From positions 721,687 through 785,686 of the forward strand of contig NZ_CP035425.1 in assembly GCF_006740685.1 (NCBI RefSeq): 64,000 nucleotides of DNA, read 5' to 3'. How positions within the stretch are numbered: position 1 is the stretch's first letter; each line of letters opens with the position of its first letter. Below, one piece after another: positions 39,018 through 49,818 of the stretch. The stretch is from Candidatus Nitrosopumilus sp. SW (GTDB lineage Archaea; Thermoproteota; Nitrososphaeria; Nitrososphaerales; Nitrosopumilaceae). The position numbers and the translations under genes are program-made. The notes beneath the pieces are model-generated. The model did not search any database. It was not told where the DNA came from and saw only the letters and a list, made by a program, of their open reading frames with translations.

Positions 39018-42000
39018 CTAGTCTGAGTAGATGGTAATCATTTCAGAGAGTATCTTTTGTTTCACTTTAACAGTCAGGTCCTTGATTGCTTGTGCTTCTG
39101 GAATTAGTCCTTGTTCAGTTTCTAAAGTAACTGTCCAATCTCCAACAATTGGATCAATTGAAGTGATAGAGAATCTTTCTAATGCACTATCAGCACCACT
39201 ATACTTTACTCTAAGTATCTGTCCATCATATTCCACACTTTGTAATCCACCTCTATTCTGTCTAGTACTATCTTGAATTGAACATTCATCAGATGCACCG
39301 ATAATACATTGACCATTTGGTGCAATCACATTGAATTTGAATTCATCTTGAGAATCAGATGCATAAATCAATACGGGTTCAGACAATACTTTTCCATCAA
39401 TTTTTATTGGTTGTATGGTCTTCATATCATAGGCAGACATTGAAACTGTCTTTGGATAGTTGTAAAGCACTCCTGAATCAGTAACTTTAGAAATTCCATA
39501 CAAATCTACTTTAGCTTGAATATCATATGATGAGAGACCATCATTAAATGGAGTCTTCCAGTCAAATGATACTTTGGTTTGTCCGTTATCAAAGAACTGA
39601 GCTTGTTTTGATACAACTTCACCATCAACTAACAGAGATACAATACCATATGCTGGTGCTTGTTCATTTTCTATGTAGATATTTGGTCTCACTATTGAGT
39701 TGCTTGCCTGAATAGATGGAACATCTAACTCTAGAGATACATCTGGTTCTGTGATTGGTTTAACGCCCATGGTGTAATGTTTTGATTCAACTTCACTAAG
39801 TTCCTCATCAATTACATGTATCCAATAACTTACTGCTGGATCTTGCAGTAGGAAAGAAGGTATGCTTGCAGATACTTGGTATGCAGAATCAGTATAGATG
39901 AGTGGTTCAACATTCATTTTCATAGCAATGTATTCATCATCAGATTGTCCTAGTGTGATAGTTCTTAGTTCAACTCTCTTGAGTGGCGTCTTGCTATCAA
40001 TAATTGCTGAAATGTTCAAGTCTTGTTCAGATACATAGAAGTATTCTGAATCAACATCGGCAATGTGTTGCGTTCCGTTCTCAATTTGGAATTTGACATC
40101 AAATATTCTAGGCACTCCAAATGAAATTTCACCTGTTTCGCCTTCTGGAATATCAGAAATTACAACAACACCATCACATGAAGGAGTGTTTATTGCAGCA
40201 TTAACGGTATTTTGTACTGTGCCTTTTTCTTCAGTAACAGTAACCATCAAGAATGTTTCATTAGATGTTATTGGAATTTCATACAGATATTTGTCAACTC
40301 TGGTAATCTTGTTTAGTTCTTCATATGGCTGTTCATCAGATAGTACTGCTATGACAGTTCCAGTCTTTGTAGTATGAATTGTAACTACTGGAGGTTTTTC
40401 AGCATCACTAGAGACAAGGATCTTTGCGATATTTTCATCACATTTGTCATATGATACTTCGTTAATTGTGAGTGGAGTGCCTAAAATACCACCAAATCCA
40501 CCTAAGCCTCTACCACTTGGGCCCACACCAACATTACCTCCACCTCCAGATTTACCTTCACTTGGACTAGTAGACGATGAGCTCTTTGATGCACCAAACT
40601 TTGTAAAGTGATTAGTCCACACAACAAGATCACCGCCAACATCGATTTTACATTCATTGTTTGAACCCAAACCTGCAGCAGAATCCGAAGTACATGTTTC
40701 AGTGATAAATGTAAGAGTGCCTGCAGAATTTACAAATACTGGAATAAATCCAGCGTCATTAGTAAATTCAATTCTTGCAGGTTTAGAAAGTGAAATTGAC
40801 TCAGTACTAAGGCCTATCTCAAATGCTGCAATCTCAGAGTAAGAAGTAGTTGTTCTTCCAGATATTTCATCAGGTATTGATATTTCAGTGTCTCCCCAAT
40901 CGAAATTACCTTTGAATACTCCTGCAGATCCAGTAGCAACAGTACCATTAGATAATCGAATATTACCTAAAGATGCTTGGGAATTATTATTTTCTACTTG
41001 ATCATGAGGGACATTGAAGTTTATTATAAGATTTTCAGATCCAGATGTTGTTATTGTAGTTGATGATTTACTTCCAGTAGTAGTTAAACCTGCTGAAAAG
41101 TCAAATGTAATTGATTCTTGGACATCACTTGCTATAGTAATAGATGTAACATTTGTGGTAGATTGCATAATTACTTTTGTATTTTCTTTTGTTACATTAA
41201 CTGTCTCAGTGTCAGTTGTAGTAGTAATGAACGTAGTTCCACTAGAGGAGCTAATTGTAACAGAAGTTGCAGGTGAATTTCCAGAGGTGTTATTAGATGT
41301 GTCTGTTTGTGTAGCAGTAAATGAGTAAGTACCATCAGAAAGTGTAGTTATTGTTACACTCCAATTTCCGCTACTATCAGCAGTTCCTGTTCCAATTGAA
41401 TTAATACCCTCACGAACTGTAATTGATGAGCCTGGTTCAGATGTTCCTGATACGGTATATGGTGCATTATTAGTGGATATGATAAGGACTTTTGGTGGAA
41501 CTACTGTAGTATCAGATGATACTGCAATTCCGGATTGAGTTTCTGCATCAACACCATCAGTACTAGTTACAGTACCAACTAGGTTGAGGGTTGGAGATAT
41601 ACTTGCACCAAGAGCAGGAGATACTGTTAGGGTTACAACATTATCATTTACAGATACTGAAGTGACAGTTATTCCTGATGGGCTAGTTATTGTAAAGTCA
41701 GATGTAGATACTGTTGAAGCACTTAGATCTTGTGAGAATGTTACCTTAATGGTATTTTGTGTGATTACTTCGGCAGATTCTATTGCCATTGTTATTTTAG
41801 CATTAACAGCATCAATTACAGAGATAGAATCAGAAAGCATCAAAGTTTGAGAGAATATCTTAGTAAATGGAGCAGATAGTGTAATGGAGTCAGAGAGTTG
41901 TATGGTTTGAGAGGCGGTGTTGGCAATAGTGTCAGATATTGTGATAGAGTCAGAGAGTGACTGGACAAATGTTGCTGCTGTAACTAAGGTGTCAGTGATT

Positions 42001-45000
42001 GTAATAGAGTCAGAGAGTTGTATGGTTTGAGAGGCGGTGTTGGCAATAGTGTCAGATACTGTGATAGAGTCAGAGAAAGTCTTGGTTATTGATGCTTCAG
42101 TTGCAAAGGTGTCAGTGATTGTAATAGAGTCAGAGAGTTGTATGGTTTGGAATGAGTTGGTTGCGACAGTGTCAGATACTGTGATAGAGTCAGAGAAAGT
42201 CTTGGTTATTGATGCTTCAGTTGCAAAGGTGTCAGTGATTGTAATAGAGTCAGAGAGTTGTATGGTTTGAGAGGCGGTGTTGGCAATAGTGTCAGATACT
42301 GTGATAGAGTCAGAGAGTGACTGGACAAATGTTGCTGCTGTAACTAAGGTGTCAGTAACTCCTACAGAGTCAGAGAGTGGTTGTGTTTGGAATGAGTTGG
42401 TTGCGACAGTGTCAGATACTGTTATTGAATCTGAAAGTGACTGGACAAATGTTGCTGCTGTAACTAAGGTGTCAGTGATTGTAATAGAGTCAGAGAGTTG
42501 TATGGTTTGAGTGGCGGTGTTGGCAATAGTGTCAGATACTGTGATAGAGTCAGAGAAAGTCTTGGTTATTGATGCTTCAGTTGCAAAGGTGTCAGTGATT
42601 GTAATAGAGTCAGAGAGTTGTATGGTTTGGAATGAGTTGGTTGCGACAGTGTCAGATACTGTGATAGAGTCAGAGAAAGTCTTGGTTATTGATGCTTCAG
42701 TTGCAAAGGTGTCAGTGATTGTAATAGAGTCAGAGAGTTGTATGGTTTGAGAGGCGGTGTTGGCAATAGTGTCAGATACTGTGATAGAGTCAGAGAGTGA
42801 CTGGACAAATGTTGCTGCTGTAACTAAGGTGTCAGTAACTCCTACAGAGTCAGAGAGTGGTTGTGTTTGGAATGAGTTGGTTGCGACAGTGTCAGATACT
42901 GTTATTGAATCTGAAAGTGACTGGACAAATGTTGCTGCTGTAACTAAGGTGTCAGTGATTGTAATAGAGTCAGAGAGTTGTATGGTTTGAGAGGCGGTGT
43001 TGGCAATAGTGTCAGATACTGTGATAGAGTCAGAGAAAGTCTTGGTTATTGATGCTTCAGTTGCAAAGGTGTCAGTGATTGTAATAGAGTCAGAGAGTTG
43101 TATGGTTTGGAATGAGTTGGTTGCGACAGTGTCAGATACTGTGATAGAGTCAGAGAAAGTCTTGGTTATTGATGCTTCAGTTGCAAAGGTGTCAGTGATT
43201 GTAATAGAGTCAGAGAGTTGTATGGTTTGAGAGGCGGTGTTGGCAATAGTGTCAGATACTGTGATAGAGTCAGAGAGTGACTGGACAAATGTTGCTGCTG
43301 TAACTAAGGTGTCAGTAACTCCTACAGAGTCAGAGAGTGGTTGTGTTTGGGAAACGGTTTCGGTTACAGTATCAGATACTGTTATTGAATCTGAAAGTGT
43401 CTTGGTTATTGATGCTTCAGTTGCAAAGGTGTCAGTGATTGTAATAGAGTCAGAGAGTTGTATGGTTTGAGAGGCGGTGTTGGCAATAGTGTCAGATACT
43501 GTGATAGAGTCAGAGAGTGACTGGACAAATGTTGCTGCTGTAACTAAGGTGTCAGTAACTCCTACAGAGTCAGAGAGTGGTTGTGTTTGGGAAACGGTTT
43601 CGGTTACAGTATCAGATACTGTTATTGAATCTGAAAGTGACTGGACAAATGTTGCTGCTGTAACTAAGGTGTCAGTAACTCCTACAGAGTCAGAGAGTTG
43701 TATGGTTTGAGAGGCGGTGTTGGCAATAGTGTCAGATACTGTGATAGAGTCAGAGAGTGACTGGACAAATGTTGCTGCTGTAACTAAGGTGTCAGTAACT
43801 CCTACAGAGTCAGAGAGTGGTTGTGTTTGGGAAACGGTTTCGGTTACAGTATCAGATACTGTTATTGAATCTGAAAGTGACTGGACAAATGTTGCTGCTG
43901 TAACTAAGGTGTCAGTAACTCCTACAGAGTCAGAGAGTTGTATGGTTTGAGAGGCGGTGTTGGCAATAGTGTCAGATACTGTGATAGAGTCAGAGAGTGA
44001 CTGGACAAATGTTGCTGCTGTAACTAAGGTGTCAGTAACTCCTACAGAGTCAGAGAGTGGTTGTGTTTGGGAAACGGTTTCGGTTACAGTATCAGATACT
44101 GTTATTGAATCTGAAAGTGTCTTGGTTATTGATGCTTCAGTTGCAAAGGTGTCAGTGATTGTAATAGAGTCAGAGAGTTGTATGGTTTGAGAGGCGGTGT
44201 TGGCAATAGTGTCAGATACTGTGATAGAGTCAGAGAGTGACTGGACAAATGTTGCTGCTGTAACTAAGGTGTCAGTAACTCCTACAGAGTCAGAGAGTGG
44301 TTGTGTTTGGGAAACGGTTTCGGTTACAGTATCAGATACTGTTATTGAATCTGAAAGTGACTGGACAAATGTTGCTGCTGTAACTAAGGTGTCAGTGATT
44401 GTAATAGAGTCAGAGAGTTGTATGGTTTGAGTGGCGGTGTTGGCAATAGTGTCAGATACTGTGATAGAGTCAGAGAGTGACTGGACAAATGTTGCTGCTG
44501 TAACTAAGGTGTCAGTAACTCCTACAGAGTCAGAGAGTGGTTGTGTTTGGGAAACGGTTTCGGTTACAGTATCAGATACTGTTATTGAATCTGAAAGTGT
44601 CTTGGTTATTGATGCTTCAGTTGCAAAGGTGTCAGTGATTGTAATAGAGTCAGAGAGTTGTATGGTTTGAGTGGCGGTGTTGGCAATAGTGTCAGATACT
44701 GTGATAGAGTCAGAGAGTGACTGGACAAATGTTGCTGCTGTAACTAAGGTGTCAGTAACTCCTACAGAGTCAGAGAGTGGTTGTGTTTGGGAAACGGTTT
44801 CGGTTACAGTATCAGATACTGTTATTGAATCTGAAAGTGACTGGACAAATGTTGCTGCTGTAACTAAGGTGTCAGTGATTGTAATAGAGTCAGAGAGTTG
44901 TATGGTTTGAGTGGCGGTGTTGGCAATAGTGTCAGATACTGTGATAGAGTCAGAGAGTTGTATGGTTTGAGTGGCGGTGTTGGTAATAGTGTCAGATACT

Positions 45001-48000
45001 GTGATAGAGTCAGAGAGTTGTATGGTTTGAGTGGCGGTGTTGGTTAGATCATCAGATACTGTGATAGAGTCAGAGAGTTGTATGGTTTGAGAGGCGGTGT
45101 TGGCAATAGTGTCAGATACTGTGATAGAGTCAGAGAGTTGTATGGTTTGAGAGGTGGTGTTGGCAATAGTGTCAGATACTGTGATAGAGTCAGAGAGTTG
45201 TATGGTTTGAGAGGCGGTGTTGGCAATAGTGTCAGATACTGTGATAGAGTCAGAGAGATATTTGAATACTTGTGATGCATAGTTTACTTCAATTGCTTTT
45301 TCAAGTGTTTTTGTACCTCCTGGTAAAGTCCAACTGTGTGTAACAGTAACGTCACCTTGATTAACAGAATATTGAGCATCATAGAAATCAGTACCTACCT
45401 GATCCATCCATGAAGTGCCTCCTAATGGTGTCGTAGGATTTTTGTTTGCAACCATTCCTGAAATCATCGCATCGCCTGCATCTACAAGAATAGCCATACT
45501 TCCATCATCACCAGCATCAGCAACGATGGCACCAACAGTATTTGCAGCATCAGATAATGCTGTGTTATCCTGTTGAACCCCACTCAAAACTATTGCACCT
45601 ACAGAAATATCAGATGCAGCAGTGGTAGTGACTTGAACATCAAAAGCTTGTCCAATAGGGATATTATTTTGTTCTAGTGTGGCAGTGTAAAATCCTGATA
45701 CAGCGTTTGATTGAGAATCTGAAGTAAGTGTACCAGTAACTAGTGTTGGAGTTGCTAAGGAATTGCTTGTTCCATCTGTAACAATATCTACACTAGAGAT
45801 TGTAACAGTGCTTGGATCAGCGGCAACAAAAATTATCACTGCAGGGTTGATGGTATCTGCAGATATTGTAAAAGAATTGGCGGTAGTTGCAGAAGTTACA
45901 GTACCAGTAGCAATACCTACTTGAGATGCAAGAAATCCAGTTACAGGGTCATTTGCAACATACCAGGGTCTTGCTTCAACAAATACAATGTCTCCATCAC
46001 TAATTTCAAGTGGGCCTAATGGGTATAATTGTGGGAATACTAGTGGAACAGAATAGGTATACTCTAGAGTTGTTCTATCATTAATCAAGTCTTTATTCCA
46101 AGTGAGAACTTTTCTATCTCCAACTGTTATGATATTTGCATCAGTATCAGATATTTCAAAGACTGAAGGTACAGTTTCTGTTATTGTGATTGTATCTTTG
46201 TCTGTAAATGACTCTATGTCAATTTTAACATTAAAGGAGTTTGGATCTGTAATTGGATCAATTTTACTTTGAGCAGTTCTGATGATGTCGTACTCTACAA
46301 ATGATGCGACATCAAATGTTGTGTTAAAATTAGTATGAATTTGATATGCTTTTGCGTTTACACTAATTTGATATGTTCCTTCTATTCCTGTTGGATAAGT
46401 TGCCTCATAGAGTCCAATTTCTTTACCACTTGTAATTTCATCACCTGTTTCTAGTTCAGTTATTTCACCATTTGGACTAGTTACAGTCATGAGGATATCA
46501 GCACCGCCAATTGGATGACCTTCTGAATCCAAAACTACAATAGTAAACTCTGCATCATCACCTGGATAGTAAGTGCTCTTTGCAGTGTTAAGTGATACCA
46601 ATCCCCATGCAAATTCTTCTTCAACTGTGTGAGTTTCACCATTTACGGTAAATGTTGTCTTTAGTTTGTAGAGACCAGGTGTGGTAATATCATCAGGAAG
46701 TAATGTTATAGTGAATTTACCATCTCTGTTTTTCTGAATTTCAGATTTAATGTCTACCTTGTTTCCTTTGGAATCAAAAACTTCTGTATTGATTTCGGTT
46801 TCATCATCTTGCCATTTTCCATTTTGTTTCTTGTCAAATGTATCAACATCTACAATTTTTTTTGCATTATGACTTGATTTGTCTAGTTTTACTGCTTGTG
46901 CTTTGTCATTTGCGTTTAGTTTGTTTGCAGTTGACTTGATATCATTTAGTATTGATTTTAGTTGTTTCTTTAGATCTTTGACTGATTCTTCATCGAGATT
47001 ACCTGATTGTTTTAGGGATGCTGTTTGAATCTTTAGAGATTCTAGTTGTTGTTTTAGGGATTCAAGTTCTGTTTTAGTTTGTTCAACATCATTTCCATTT
47101 GCAGCATCAACACTTGGTAAGAATAATTCAATTGAAAAGATCATTCCAAGAACTGCAGCAAATGATTGCGTAGATAGTGCCGGATCATTTAATTCTGTAA
47201 GACTAGATTCTGTTTCAGTTAAGAGTATTTGTGCAGCTGATTCAATCTCTTCAATCTCAGATAGTAATGCATCATATTCATCAAAGAACTCTAACTCAAA
47301 TGTTGCATCCTCAGATAGTTCGAATGTTTGTTCAGTTGAATCAAGAATTGGAGTAGAAATTATTTCTGGTTCTGAGATGGGTGTTGGTTCAGGAATCAAT
47401 TCTCCAGTTGGTTCTGCAGAAATTATTTCAACTGATGTGGAGTTTGATTGTATGGCTGTGGATGTGGAGTTTTCAGAATTTGCTAGTTGTTCTGCTTCAA
47501 TTTGAGCAAGAATCTCTTCTAGGCTGAGCTCAGGCACGATTTTAGCATAAGCAGCCTTTGTTTGCTCATACATTGCCAAAATTTGTTCATCTTCTAGAAC
47601 ATAGTCATACAAGGATACATCATCAATTTCACCTGAGAACTGATTGCTTGCTTTTGATACTTCCTTTTTAACGGTAACAGTTGCACCAATTACAATATCT
47701 TCTTCAGATGTTAGATTTTCAACAGTTGTTGTTTCTAATTTTCCATTTGTGGTAAGTGTTGGCACACCTACAACTTTTTGAGTTGCTTCTCTTGTACCAT
47801 TTACAAAAATTCCTATGTTATCACCATCAAACGTTGATGATAAAAAGTTCCAGTTTTCAGTTATTACACTAGTAGATTCTACAGTAGTCCATTTTATTCC
47901 ATCAAATACAGAGAACTTTGCAGTATTATCAGATAGGAAATTGTTACTAATTGTAAGGGAAAATGATTTGTCCTTGCTTACAACTGTAAATTCTGAAGAA

Positions 48001-48212
48001 CCTGATGAATAATCTGGTTTAACCCATGCAGTTACGGTTAATCCGTCTACATCATCAGTTACAGTAGCATTTTCAATTTGAATAAAATCATCTTGTCCAT
48101 TTAACTCAAGGGATGTAATTTCCGGTTCAATAGAGGTAGCATTGGTGACAATTATTCCTGTGGCTGTGGAGTTACTTTCAGATGTATCTAATTCTTCAAA
48201 TTCAAAAGACAA
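39018..48212 (-). CDS. Giant repetitive surface protein, main (C-terminal) part of a split gene
   Basis: A frame of 3064 codons from a TTG; it is really open further upstream, to about 48447, and lacks its own signal peptide. In order: a LamG/concanavalin-like domain (about 35-215); linkers with NST repeats; a coiled coil (about 380-450); a long beta-rich region typical of thaumarchaeal surface proteins (about 470-980); about 57 tandem 20-residue repeats (SDSITVSDT core, about 985-2115); an SwmB/Big-like Ig pair (SGTSEPGSSITVREG); a Gly-rich hinge (SGGGGNVGVGPSGRG); and a C-terminal beta-rich region with no clear membrane anchor. It is Ser/Thr/Asp rich. Role inferred: adhesin or S-layer-associated. 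The signal peptide is in the 48241-49818 ORF. Confidence 0.85.
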   Translation of the reverse strand: MSFEFEELDTSESNSTATGIIVTNATSIEPEITSLELNGQDDFIQIENATVTDDVDGLTVTAWVKPDYSSGSSEFTVVSKDKSFSLTISNNFLSDNTAKFSVFDGIKWTTVESTSVITENWNFLSSTFDGDNIGIFVNGTREATQKVVGVPTLTTNGKLETTTVENLTSEEDIVIGATVTVKKEVSKASNQFSGEIDDVSLYDYVLEDEQILAMYEQTKAAYAKIVPELSLEEILAQIEAEQLANSENSTSTAIQSNSTSVEIISAEPTGELIPEPTPISEPEIISTPILDSTEQTFELSEDATFELEFFDEYDALLSEIEEIESAAQILLTETESSLTELNDPALSTQSFAAVLGMIFSIELFLPSVDAANGNDVEQTKTELESLKQQLESLKIQTASLKQSGNLDEESVKDLKKQLKSILNDIKSTANKLNANDKAQAVKLDKSSHNAKKIVDVDTFDKKQNGKWQDDETEINTEVFDSKGNKVDIKSEIQKNRDGKFTITLLPDDITTPGLYKLKTTFTVNGETHTVEEEFAWGLVSLNTAKSTYYPGDDAEFTIVVLDSEGHPIGGADILMTVTSPNGEITELETGDEITSGKEIGLYEATYPTGIEGTYQISVNAKAYQIHTNFNTTFDVASFVEYDIIRTAQSKIDPITDPNSFNVKIDIESFTDKDTITITETVPSVFEISDTDANIITVGDRKVLTWNKDLINDRTTLEYTYSVPLVFPQLYPLGPLEISDGDIVFVEARPWYVANDPVTGFLASQVGIATGTVTSATTANSFTISADTINPAVIIFVAADPSTVTISSVDIVTDGTSNSLATPTLVTGTLTSDSQSNAVSGFYTATLEQNNIPIGQAFDVQVTTTAASDISVGAIVLSGVQQDNTALSDAANTVGAIVADAGDDGSMAILVDAGDAMISGMVANKNPTTPLGGTSWMDQVGTDFYDAQYSVNQGDVTVTHSWTLPGGTKTLEKAIEVNYASQVFKYLSDSITVSDTIANTASQTIQLSDSITVSDTIANTTSQTIQLSDSITVSDTIANTASQTIQLSDSITVSDDLTNTATQTIQLSDSITVSDTITNTATQTIQLSDSITVSDTIANTATQTIQLSDSITITDTLVTAATFVQSLSDSITVSDTVTETVSQTQPLSDSVGVTDTLVTAATFVQSLSDSITVSDTIANTATQTIQLSDSITITDTFATEASITKTLSDSITVSDTVTETVSQTQPLSDSVGVTDTLVTAATFVQSLSDSITVSDTIANTATQTIQLSDSITITDTLVTAATFVQSLSDSITVSDTVTETVSQTQPLSDSVGVTDTLVTAATFVQSLSDSITVSDTIANTASQTIQLSDSITITDTFATEASITKTLSDSITVSDTVTETVSQTQPLSDSVGVTDTLVTAATFVQSLSDSITVSDTIANTASQTIQLSDSVGVTDTLVTAATFVQSLSDSITVSDTVTETVSQTQPLSDSVGVTDTLVTAATFVQSLSDSITVSDTIANTASQTIQLSDSVGVTDTLVTAATFVQSLSDSITVSDTVTETVSQTQPLSDSVGVTDTLVTAATFVQSLSDSITVSDTIANTASQTIQLSDSITITDTFATEASITKTLSDSITVSDTVTETVSQTQPLSDSVGVTDTLVTAATFVQSLSDSITVSDTIANTASQTIQLSDSITITDTFATEASITKTFSDSITVSDTVATNSFQTIQLSDSITITDTFATEASITKTFSDSITVSDTIANTASQTIQLSDSITITDTLVTAATFVQSLSDSITVSDTVATNSFQTQPLSDSVGVTDTLVTAATFVQSLSDSITVSDTIANTASQTIQLSDSITITDTFATEASITKTFSDSITVSDTVATNSFQTIQLSDSITITDTFATEASITKTFSDSITVSDTIANTATQTIQLSDSITITDTLVTAATFVQSLSDSITVSDTVATNSFQTQPLSDSVGVTDTLVTAATFVQSLSDSITVSDTIANTASQTIQLSDSITITDTFATEASITKTFSDSITVSDTVATNSFQTIQLSDSITITDTFATEASITKTFSDSITVSDTIANTASQTIQLSDSITITDTLVTAATFVQSLSDSITISDTIANTASQTIQLSDSITLSAPFTKIFSQTLMLSDSISVIDAVNAKITMAIESAEVITQNTIKVTFSQDLSASTVSTSDFTITSPSGITVTSVSVNDNVVTLTVSPALGASISPTLNLVGTVTSTDGVDAETQSGIAVSSDTTVVPPKVLIISTNNAPYTVSGTSEPGSSITVREGINSIGTGTADSSGNWSVTITTLSDGTYSFTATQTDTSNNTSGNSPATSVTISSSSGTTFITTTTDTETVNVTKENTKVIMQSTTNVTSITIASDVQESITFDFSAGLTTTGSKSSTTITTSGSENLIINFNVPHDQVENNNSQASLGNIRLSNGTVATGSAGVFKGNFDWGDTEISIPDEISGRTTTSYSEIAAFEIGLSTESISLSKPARIEFTNDAGFIPVFVNSAGTLTFITETCTSDSAAGLGSNNECKIDVGGDLVVWTNHFTKFGASKSSSSTSPSEGKSGGGGNVGVGPSGRGLGGFGGILGTPLTINEVSYDKCDENIAKILVSSDAEKPPVVTIHTTKTGTVIAVLSDEQPYEELNKITRVDKYLYEIPITSNETFLMVTVTEEKGTVQNTVNAAINTPSCDGVVVISDIPEGETGEISFGVPRIFDVKFQIENGTQHIADVDSEYFYVSEQDLNISAIIDSKTPLKRVELRTITLGQSDDEYIAMKMNVEPLIYTDSAYQVSASIPSFLLQDPAVSYWIHVIDEELSEVESKHYTMGVKPITEPDVSLELDVPSIQASNSIVRPNIYIENEQAPAYGIVSLLVDGEVVSKQAQFFDNGQTKVSFDWKTPFNDGLSSYDIQAKVDLYGISKVTDSGVLYNYPKTVSMSAYDMKTIQPIKIDGKVLSEPVLIYASDSQDEFKFNVIAPNGQCIIGASDECSIQDSTRQNRGGLQSVEYDGQILRVKYSGADSALERFSITSIDPIVGDWTVTLETEQGLIPEAQAIKDLTVKVKQKILSEMITIYSD
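41871..45260 (-). repeat. 60-bp tandem array (about 57 copies) in the giant surface gene
   Basis: Each 60-bp unit encodes a SDSITVSDT-like core plus a ten-residue spacer. Five spacer types recur: IANTASQTIQ, LVTAATFVQS, FATEASITKT, VATNSFQTIQ and VTETVSQTQP, with small variants. Cores alternate between SDSITVSDT and SDSITITDT/SDSVGVTDT, giving a 120-bp dimer nested in a 240-bp higher-order period. The register is exact at 60 bp across almost the whole array, and many units are identical at DNA level. No spacer-like unique sequence exists, so it is not CRISPR. Confidence 0.95.
47435..47471 (-). repeat. Isolated remnant of the 21-bp NSTAIQS repeat
   Basis: The sequence matching the 21-bp unit (GTGGAGTTTGATTGTATGGC on the plus strand) recurs here about 800 bp from the main array, inside the giant ORF. 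Sharing this unit ties the two split ORFs together as one ancestral gene. Confidence 0.75.
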
Positions 48213-48287
48213 AGATGCTTTTGGAACAACAATTTCCGGTTCAATAGAGGTAGCATTGGTGACAATTATTCCTGTGGCTGTGGAGTT
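48117..48287 (-). repeat. Direct duplication, two 57-bp copies 114 bp apart
   Basis: Copies at 48117-48173 and 48231-48287 appear identical and encode NSTATGIIVTNATSIEPEI twice. The 114-bp offset (38 codons) keeps frame. It lies at the edge of the 21-bp array, as if a larger block had been duplicated there. Confidence 0.85.
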
Positions 48288-49818
48288 TGATTGTATGGCT
48301 GTGGAGTTTGATTGTATGGCTGTGGAGTTTGATTGTATGGCTGTGGAGTTTGATTGTATGGCTGTGGAGTTTGATTGTATGGCTGTGGAGTTTGATTGTA
48401 TGGCTGTGGAGTTTGATTGTATGGCTGTGGAGTTTGATTGTATGGCTTGATTGTATGGCTGTGGAGTTTGATTGTATGGCTGTGGAGTTTGATTGTATGG
48501 CTGTGGAGTTTGATTGTATGGCTGTGGAGTTTGATTGTATGGCTGTGGAGTTTGATTGTATGGCTGTGGAGTTTGATTGTATGGCTGTGGAGTTTGATTG
48601 TATGGCTGTGGAGTTTGATTGTATGGCTGTGGAGTTTGATTGTATGGCTGTGGAGTTTGATTGTATGGCTGTGGAGTTTGATTGTATGGCTGTGGAGTTT
48701 GATTGTATGGCTGTGGAGTTTGATTGTATGGCTGTGGAGTTTGATTGTATGGCTGTGGAGTTTGATTGTATGGCTGTGGAGTTTGATTGTATGGCTGTGG
48801 AGTTTGATTGTATGGCTGTGGAGTTTGATTGTATGGCTGTGGAGTTTGATTGTATGGCTGTGGAGTTTGATTGTATGGCTGTGGAGTTTGATTGTATGGC
48901 TGTGGAGTTTGATTGTATGGCTGTGGAGTTTGATTTTGTTGTTGTAGAATTTTCTAAATTAAAATTATTTTGAGAATCCTGAATTATACCATCAAAAGAA
49001 AATTCCTCACCAAAAGCAACAGGCAGTTCCCAATAATTTGTTGAAATTAAGAATGGTGTGCTTATAGTAGATAATAATATTAAAACGAATAAACTTGAAC
49101 ACTGAATTTGTTTAGGAAATTTAGGATTAATTTTAATTTGTTCTGATTTAATTAAGACAATTCCTGCAAGAGGAACCAACAACAATGAGATGGTAGGATT
49201 AGAGAGAATAGAAATCTCTTTTTCAAAAGATGGTGGAATGAATTGGTAGGTTTCTTCATTTAATTCAAGGGATATTATGTTATTTGGTTTGTCTTGAAAA
49301 TAATTTGAAAGAACTTGTTGGATTTCTTCGTTGTGAATGTTTTCATTAAAAATCACTTTAGATGAATCTGACAAGAAGTTTTCTATAGAATTGTATGAAT
49401 CAATATCATTTTCAGATAACTGAAGATTTTTTCCATCAAATTTCATTTTTTCAGAATTTGTTATTCTTGTTAATGATGCATACTTGTCAGTTTCATAATT
49501 GACATAAACCTCTGGTGGAATTTCATAAGGTTGTGTTAAAACACTAATTTTTTCATTGAAATGTATTACATTAAGTACTTTGGGGGCAACAGAATTTTTT
49601 GATGTTGGTGAATCATCTAATGCTACATTGATGTTTTCATTTAATTTTAGAATATATGCTTTCTCTGCATTTTCAAGAAATTGTTCAGAGCTCATAGAAT
49701 TTTGAAATTCAAGAGAAATTTCTTTTTCACTGGTTCCATTTGCAGACGGAATTGAAAATGTAATACCGATGACAAAAAATAACATCAGTATTTTAGTAAT
49801 TCCTACTTTCTCTTTCAT
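48241..49818 (-). CDS. Giant surface protein, N-terminal part of the split gene
   Basis: A 525-codon frame starting ATG. A signal peptide (residues 1-28, MLFFVIGITFSIPSANG) precedes an alpha/beta region (30-200). A hydrophobic helix (about 206-224) and a second signal-like hydrophobic stretch (CSSLFVLILLSTISTPFLIST, about 242-262) lead to LPVAFGEE, and then 23 NSTAIQS repeats. After the 8-bp deletion at 48447/48448 the frame turns into LHSHTIK nonsense and stops. Restoring 8 bp joins it to the 3064-codon ORF: 10801 + 8 = 10809 bp, a 3602-aa protein. The secretion signal therefore belongs to the giant protein. Confidence 0.8.
   Translation of the reverse strand: MKEKVGITKILMLFFVIGITFSIPSANGTSEKEISLEFQNSMSSEQFLENAEKAYILKLNENINVALDDSPTSKNSVAPKVLNVIHFNEKISVLTQPYEIPPEVYVNYETDKYASLTRITNSEKMKFDGKNLQLSENDIDSYNSIENFLSDSSKVIFNENIHNEEIQQVLSNYFQDKPNNIISLELNEETYQFIPPSFEKEISILSNPTISLLLVPLAGIVLIKSEQIKINPKFPKQIQCSSLFVLILLSTISTPFLISTNYWELPVAFGEEFSFDGIIQDSQNNFNLENSTTTKSNSTAIQSNSTAIQSNSTAIQSNSTAIQSNSTAIQSNSTAIQSNSTAIQSNSTAIQSNSTAIQSNSTAIQSNSTAIQSNSTAIQSNSTAIQSNSTAIQSNSTAIQSNSTAIQSNSTAIQSNSTAIQSNSTAIQSNSTAIQSNSTAIQSNSTAIQSNSTAIQSSHTIKLHSHTIKLHSHTIKLHSHTIKLHSHTIKLHSHTIKLHSHTIKLHSHTIKLHSHRNNCHQCYLY
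48276..48934 (-). repeat. 21-bp tandem array (about 31 copies) encoding NSTAIQS
   Basis: About 8 units precede and 23 units follow one defective 13-bp unit (plus-strand order). Every normal unit is AACTCCACAGCCATACAATCA on the coding strand, encoding NSTAIQS, so each copy adds an N-glycosylation sequon. At 48447/48448 one unit lacks the 8 bp GTGGAGTT, shifting the frame. Units look identical, implying recent expansion. Confidence 0.95.
48447..48448 (-). other. 8-bp deletion junction splitting the giant surface gene
   Basis: The plus strand reads TATGGCT|TGATTGTATGGC where every other unit reads TATGGCT-GTGGAGTT-TGATTG. Losing 8 bp puts upstream NSTAIQS and downstream NSTAIQS in different frames. 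Confidence 0.9.

Follow-up and report, generated by a model that had tools for sequence, protein, structure and literature searches.

A giant surface-protein gene of Candidatus Nitrosopumilus sp. SW, intact in relatives, is split in a 21-bp repeat by a recent frame break or an assembly slip

Two adjacent open reading frames of Candidatus Nitrosopumilus sp. SW, ORF1 and ORF2, are the pieces of one giant exported surface-protein gene, and the reading we prefer, with a probability of roughly 45%, is that a recent lesion broke its frame within a stalk of variable length. The relatives of the gene are intact, so that the break seen here either arose recently and can probably be reversed, or is a slip of assembly in a repeat that is hard to read; a built-in switch is not supported. 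The window analysed is a stretch of 64,000 nucleotides. Its host genome is a single contig of 1,499,620 bp, with kin in Nitrosopumilus and other Nitrosopumilaceae, and the features discussed below are collected in Table 1.

Table 1. Features of the split gene and its repeats, in window positions
Feature	Position	Strand	Description or basis
ORF1	48241-49818	minus	525 aa: signal peptide, N-terminal module, two-helix hairpin, (NSTAIQS)23, out-of-frame (LHSHTIK)n tail
Signal peptide-like N-terminus	49735-49818	minus	Hydropathy alone; residues 5-23 are hydrophobic
Conserved N-terminal module, ~180 aa	49207-49734	minus	No Pfam match, no clear PDB match
Two hydrophobic helices, Lys-rich loop, AFG-E end	49009-49206	minus	Hydropathy and relatives
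Stalk array	48275-48935	minus	Perfect 21-bp units, NSTAIQS, one N-X-T sequon each, 661 bp
Frame-shifting 13-bp unit	48435-48447	minus	Single; loss of 8 bp, or 13 bp duplicated in tandem
Two in-frame copies of NSTATGIIVTNATSIEPEI	48151-48280	minus	3' edge of the array
ORF2	39018-48212	minus	3064 aa, TTG start
LamG / concanavalin A-like domain	47556-48119	minus	PF13385, E = 2.6e-18; PDB match 4qvs, E = 2.1e-8
Second in-frame NST repeat copy	47433-47471	minus	Sequence
771-bp tract	46603-47373	minus	100% identical to a paralogous giant gene, genome C1:7409-8179
3.3-kb array of 120-bp units, SDSITVSDT-type	41880-45198	minus	TRF; frame intact throughout
Conserved C-terminal segment	39021-39506	minus	Common to two other loci of the host genome

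An earlier note on this DNA had described two adjacent minus-strand ORFs, of which the upstream one alone carried a signal peptide, and this is what was found: by hydropathy, ORF1 begins with a signal peptide-like stretch and ORF2 has none. The NSTAIQS frame lies in ORF1 before the lesion and in the frame of ORF2 after it. Past the lesion, ORF1 reads the final units as LHSHTIK and reaches its stop at 48241. The frame of ORF2 is open upstream to 48953, giving 3311 open codons from the upstream stop at 48954-48956, and it holds no start codon there: the first ATG, GTG or TTG is the TTG at 48212, 29 nt past the ORF1 stop, and the first ATG is at 47573, close to the end of the LamG domain. The two ORFs span 10801 bp, which is 1 mod 3, so that the restored frame of 10809 bp quoted in the earlier note is consistent with the sequence.

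The break itself is confined to one unit. Read on the minus strand, the array has 30 exact copies of AACTCCACAGCCATACAATCA: 23 stand before the 13-bp unit, 7 full copies plus a partial one stand after it, and these 30 are the only copies in the whole genome (1.5 Mb). TRF reports a period of 13 at 48434-48460, with 100% identity. The earlier description of an 8-bp deletion was right about the shift of frame and too specific about its cause, since a 13-bp tandem duplication would leave an identical sequence. The junction has 1 bp of homology, while elsewhere 3 bp are on offer for an equal shift. None of the three sense frames of the 21-bp unit contains a stop codon; the other simple coding units tested differ in this. 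A frame break therefore does not stop translation within the array. When did the break occur? The full units are all identical, and the 3311-codon frame, including its 3.3-kb array, contains no other lesion, which argues that the lesion is recent. The recurrence of the NST repeat in the downstream ORF, reported earlier at 47435, was also recovered, in frame.

Comparison with relatives bears on whether there is one gene or two. Among the loci examined, 23 distinct genomes or records have the N-terminal module and LamG in the same ORF, as expected from the earlier proposal that ORF1 and ORF2 are a single gene, and the two parts fall in separate ORFs only in the window genome, G083 and G149 (G084 is masked there). 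Relatives with two separate signal-peptide genes, which the earlier note had named as counter-evidence, were looked for and not found. Both flanks of the locus are conserved in G149, taken here as SCGC AAA799-D11 (JOSY01000077.1), and in the PfA MAG; the downstream neighbours are conserved also in G072, G254 and G232. At the conserved place, PfA has one frame that holds both the N-terminal module and LamG, and G072 has a single 3219-aa ORF beginning with the module, in which LamG was not detected by the LamG profile. Because the two parts occur in one ORF in relatives, syntenic genes included, the split is derived and not ancestral, and it is a well-supported reading of these comparisons that ORF1 and ORF2 are one gene.

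Could the two ORFs nevertheless be two real genes, or be joined into the full protein by a programmed ribosomal frameshift? The TTG start so soon after the ORF1 stop fits such a proposal, but the downstream product would lack a signal peptide, relatives have one ORF, and no classical slippery heptamer was recognised by eye in the repeat. Both variants are hardly credible.

The gene belongs to a family of LamG giant surface proteins of Nitrosopumilaceae, with 2300-5200 aa in G200, G143, G072, G254, G203, G202, G232 and G220. Several of these are syntenic with it, and all have in common with it the order of modules and the conserved N- and C-terminal segments; they differ in having the N-terminal module and LamG in one ORF and linkers of other repeat sequences. 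By sequence, module order and synteny the window gene is a member, as a broken copy whose parts do not share one frame: it has the N-terminal module with signal peptide and hairpin, PF13385 after a linker, the C-terminal segment and the neighbourhood. The nearest C-terminal segment found is that of SCGC AAA799-D11, at 88% identity, and LamG is about 80-90% identical to the same genome.

What would the protein look like? Relatives of the N-terminal module were found by profile in 73 of 250 Nitrosopumilaceae genomes. The two helices that follow it occupy residues 205-223 and 240-258 of ORF1. Shortly past the second helix, A-[FY]-A-[ED] or a near variant is found in most relatives and is represented in the window gene by AFG-E; this motif looks like an internal signal-peptidase site. 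The stalk repeats would lie outside the cell, to judge from hydropathy. The LamG-like part seen earlier now has a Pfam assignment (Table 1); in this gene it sits after a Ser/Thr/Asn-rich linker and is followed by a coiled-coil-like stretch and then by an MG2-like part that is under its Pfam cut-off. Matches to TFIIB and SMC in the repeats were discarded as low-complexity. As for the sequons, proof that N-X-S/T sites are N-glycosylated exists for the soil ammonia oxidiser Ns. viennensis, and there was no clear evidence of N-glycosylation for the S-layer protein of Np. piranensis (PMC12153357). Bacterial fibrillar adhesins and archaeal adhesin-like proteins combine a long repeat stalk with a carbohydrate-binding-like domain, as the window gene does (PMC8286594, PMC11532034). 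The likeness to these adhesins is one of sequence, and the window gene differs in its unnamed N-terminal module.

With a recent lesion, events could be pictured as follows. The VNTR would normally vary in copy number only, making the stalk longer or shorter, with one N-glycosylation sequon per unit, until a rare illegitimate event, either the loss of 8 bp or the duplication of 13 bp, recently broke the frame. The lesion allele would yield only a membrane-anchored stub of ~525 aa in which module and hairpin are followed by about 23 sequon units and an off-frame tail; such cells would export no LamG/Ig/repeat part. Exchange between a unit before the lesion (any of 23) and one after it (about 8) may remove it. 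Because such an exchange would delete the lesion and restore the frame, reversion should be easy, though the array is not built as a switch; the forward, frame-breaking event would be rare. Against a recent lesion, related giant genes elsewhere also have 1-bp frame breaks, several of which resemble sequencing errors.

The similarity of this arrangement to bacterial contingency loci invites a bolder proposal, namely that frames in the stalk are frequently broken and repaired under selection, so that cells that have the giant protein and cells that lack it coexist in one population. Like those loci, the window gene encodes a surface protein, has an array near its 5' end and suffers a frame break that cuts off the export signal. 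The lesion separates the export module from all that is exported, which is the best position for a switch; every sense frame of the unit is open, unit exchange makes repair easy, and G083 and G149 are also split in the same stalk. However, contingency loci have repeat units not divisible by three, or homopolymers, while the window has a 21-bp unit and a lesion that is a partial unit. As the earlier note had recognised, slippage of whole units is neutral to the frame, because 21 bp is divisible by three, and a unit of this size does not suit frame switching by slippage. There is a single odd unit in the array, the junction homology is minimal, and no second state has been seen in this strain. 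G083 is split by a 1-bp insertion, and G149, a single-cell genome, carries a second lesion; neither is the same event. The ON/OFF switch suggested in the earlier note is not borne out by the unit length, the junction or the one allele seen, and a selected switch is improbable. The two other readings of that note, inactivation or an assembly artefact, are still plausible. The general form of the idea, in which stalk arrays of giant Nitrosopumilaceae proteins would be contingency sites turned OFF by partial-unit events and ON by unit exchange, giving stochastic surface variation in free-living marine archaea, is likewise unlikely. Among the titles and abstracts listed by literature searches on phase variation and archaea, no archaeal repeat-driven case came up, which is weak evidence of absence.

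Frame breaks in G007, G036, G083, G149 and BD3 were weighed as a possible sign of recurrent switching, and this reading was set aside. In the four genomes inspected at base level (G007, G036, G083 and G149), the breaks are for the most part 1-bp indels, and one gene often has several of them, which is what sequencing error or decay would give; BD3 was seen by its ORF breaks only. G007 has three 1-bp changes near repeats, and G036 a short out-of-frame stretch within repeats; in G083 a 93-bp repeat has gained 1 bp, with further breaks after it, and in G149 one break is at the end of the array and another near the C-terminus. These giant genes are often broken in public assemblies; the breaks are other events than the one in the window gene and are no proof of switching.

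Repeats elsewhere in the genome follow a simple rule. With strict TRF settings, all coding arrays found in 484 kb of the window genome have units divisible by three and open frames, and the only three units not divisible by three (32, 26 and 52 bp) are all intergenic. The aaTR proteins of Borgs are encoded by perfect, recent tandem repeats that are enriched in extracellular proteins, with units divisible by three in ORFs and often not divisible by three in intergenic regions (PMC9879509). The window genome is like them in that its coding units are divisible by three and the exceptions intergenic (PMC9879509), and the window array itself has a unit divisible by three, near-perfect copies and, as hydropathy indicates, an extracellular region. 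Unlike the Borg repeats, it belongs to a gene on the chromosome of an ammonia oxidiser, and one partial unit breaks its frame.

Is the break present in the cells at all? The array may be intact and in frame, perhaps in mixed copy number, with groups of reads joined off-register so that a 13-bp unit was left behind. This is quite possible: the array amounts to 661 bp of perfect repeats, and in many relatives the contig stops only a few bases from where the N-module ORF ends. The accuracy of the genome as a whole speaks against it. When 190 ORFs of N. adriaticus were matched against the window genome (154 kb), no frame break was found in the latter; the same-genus genome used, of 1,803,090 bp, is presumably N. 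adriaticus NF5, and the reverse comparison gave two frame breaks, both in N. adriaticus. The lesion is not a random base-call error, since these 190 orthologues are free of frame breaks and the lesion is not a homopolymer indel. Other long perfect arrays of the window genome (18 bp x 24.6, 27 bp x 8.7, 18 bp x 18.2, 30 bp x 14.8, and arrays of 120 bp and 171 bp) are also all in frame. Tandem repeats are a documented source of assembly errors (PMC6868369).

A separate observation is that the stalk is a recurrent assembly breakpoint. Contigs end exactly there in many fragmented relatives, and it is thus hard to assemble.

The two outcomes have different consequences. If the lesion is real, an ammonia-oxidising archaeon offers a testable case in which a major surface protein is lost, and probably regained, stochastically. 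Should it be an artefact, frame calls in these giant genes are not trustworthy without reads, and many assemblies break at this same place. Either way, a conserved export module that is absent from Pfam stands ahead of giant surface proteins in many Nitrosopumilaceae genomes, and this gene family and its N-terminal module are of wider interest than the lesion.

A last alternative is a long-standing pseudogene, dead and decaying. Related giant genes look decayed or broken in some genomes, such as G240 with its in-frame TGA repeats, and the PfA giant gene has a large deletion. The window gene, in contrast, has one lesion in 10.8 kb and a downstream frame that stays open over its full length, its LamG and C-terminus have kept the identity to SCGC AAA799-D11 given above, and its 771-bp tract is identical to an intact paralogue. 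Long decay is therefore very improbable.

The paralogue in question is a giant surface-protein gene of 2488 aa at genome C1:5673-13139, about 0.76 Mb away. The complete identity over 771 bp and the abrupt upstream edge of the tract are best read as recent gene conversion. Because the tract is less similar to SCGC AAA799-D11 than LamG and the C-terminus are, the comparison suggests that the window gene was the recipient.

Just upstream of the paralogue, at genome C1:3786-5608, four near-perfect arrays follow one another: 32 bp x 5.7, 26 bp x 22, 52 bp x 5.4 and 12 bp x 40. The unit of the last is ATTATTTTCTAA, and this array ends about 65 bp before the ATG of the paralogue; this may be a VNTR that tunes expression. 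The window genome is unusually rich in perfect tandem arrays. At a TRF score of at least 100 and equal settings, 25 arrays were counted in genome C1:1-400000 and 7 in 380 kb of N. adriaticus.

Other giant or repetitive genes gave two further observations. In G240 (L080:8308-12531), a giant-gene unit that contains an in-frame TGA has multiplied to cover about 4.2 kb, so that the gene is stopped in every unit. In N. adriaticus (G143, C1 about 251100-251430), one unit of a 96-bp coding array has A3 and not A4, and the frame is broken.
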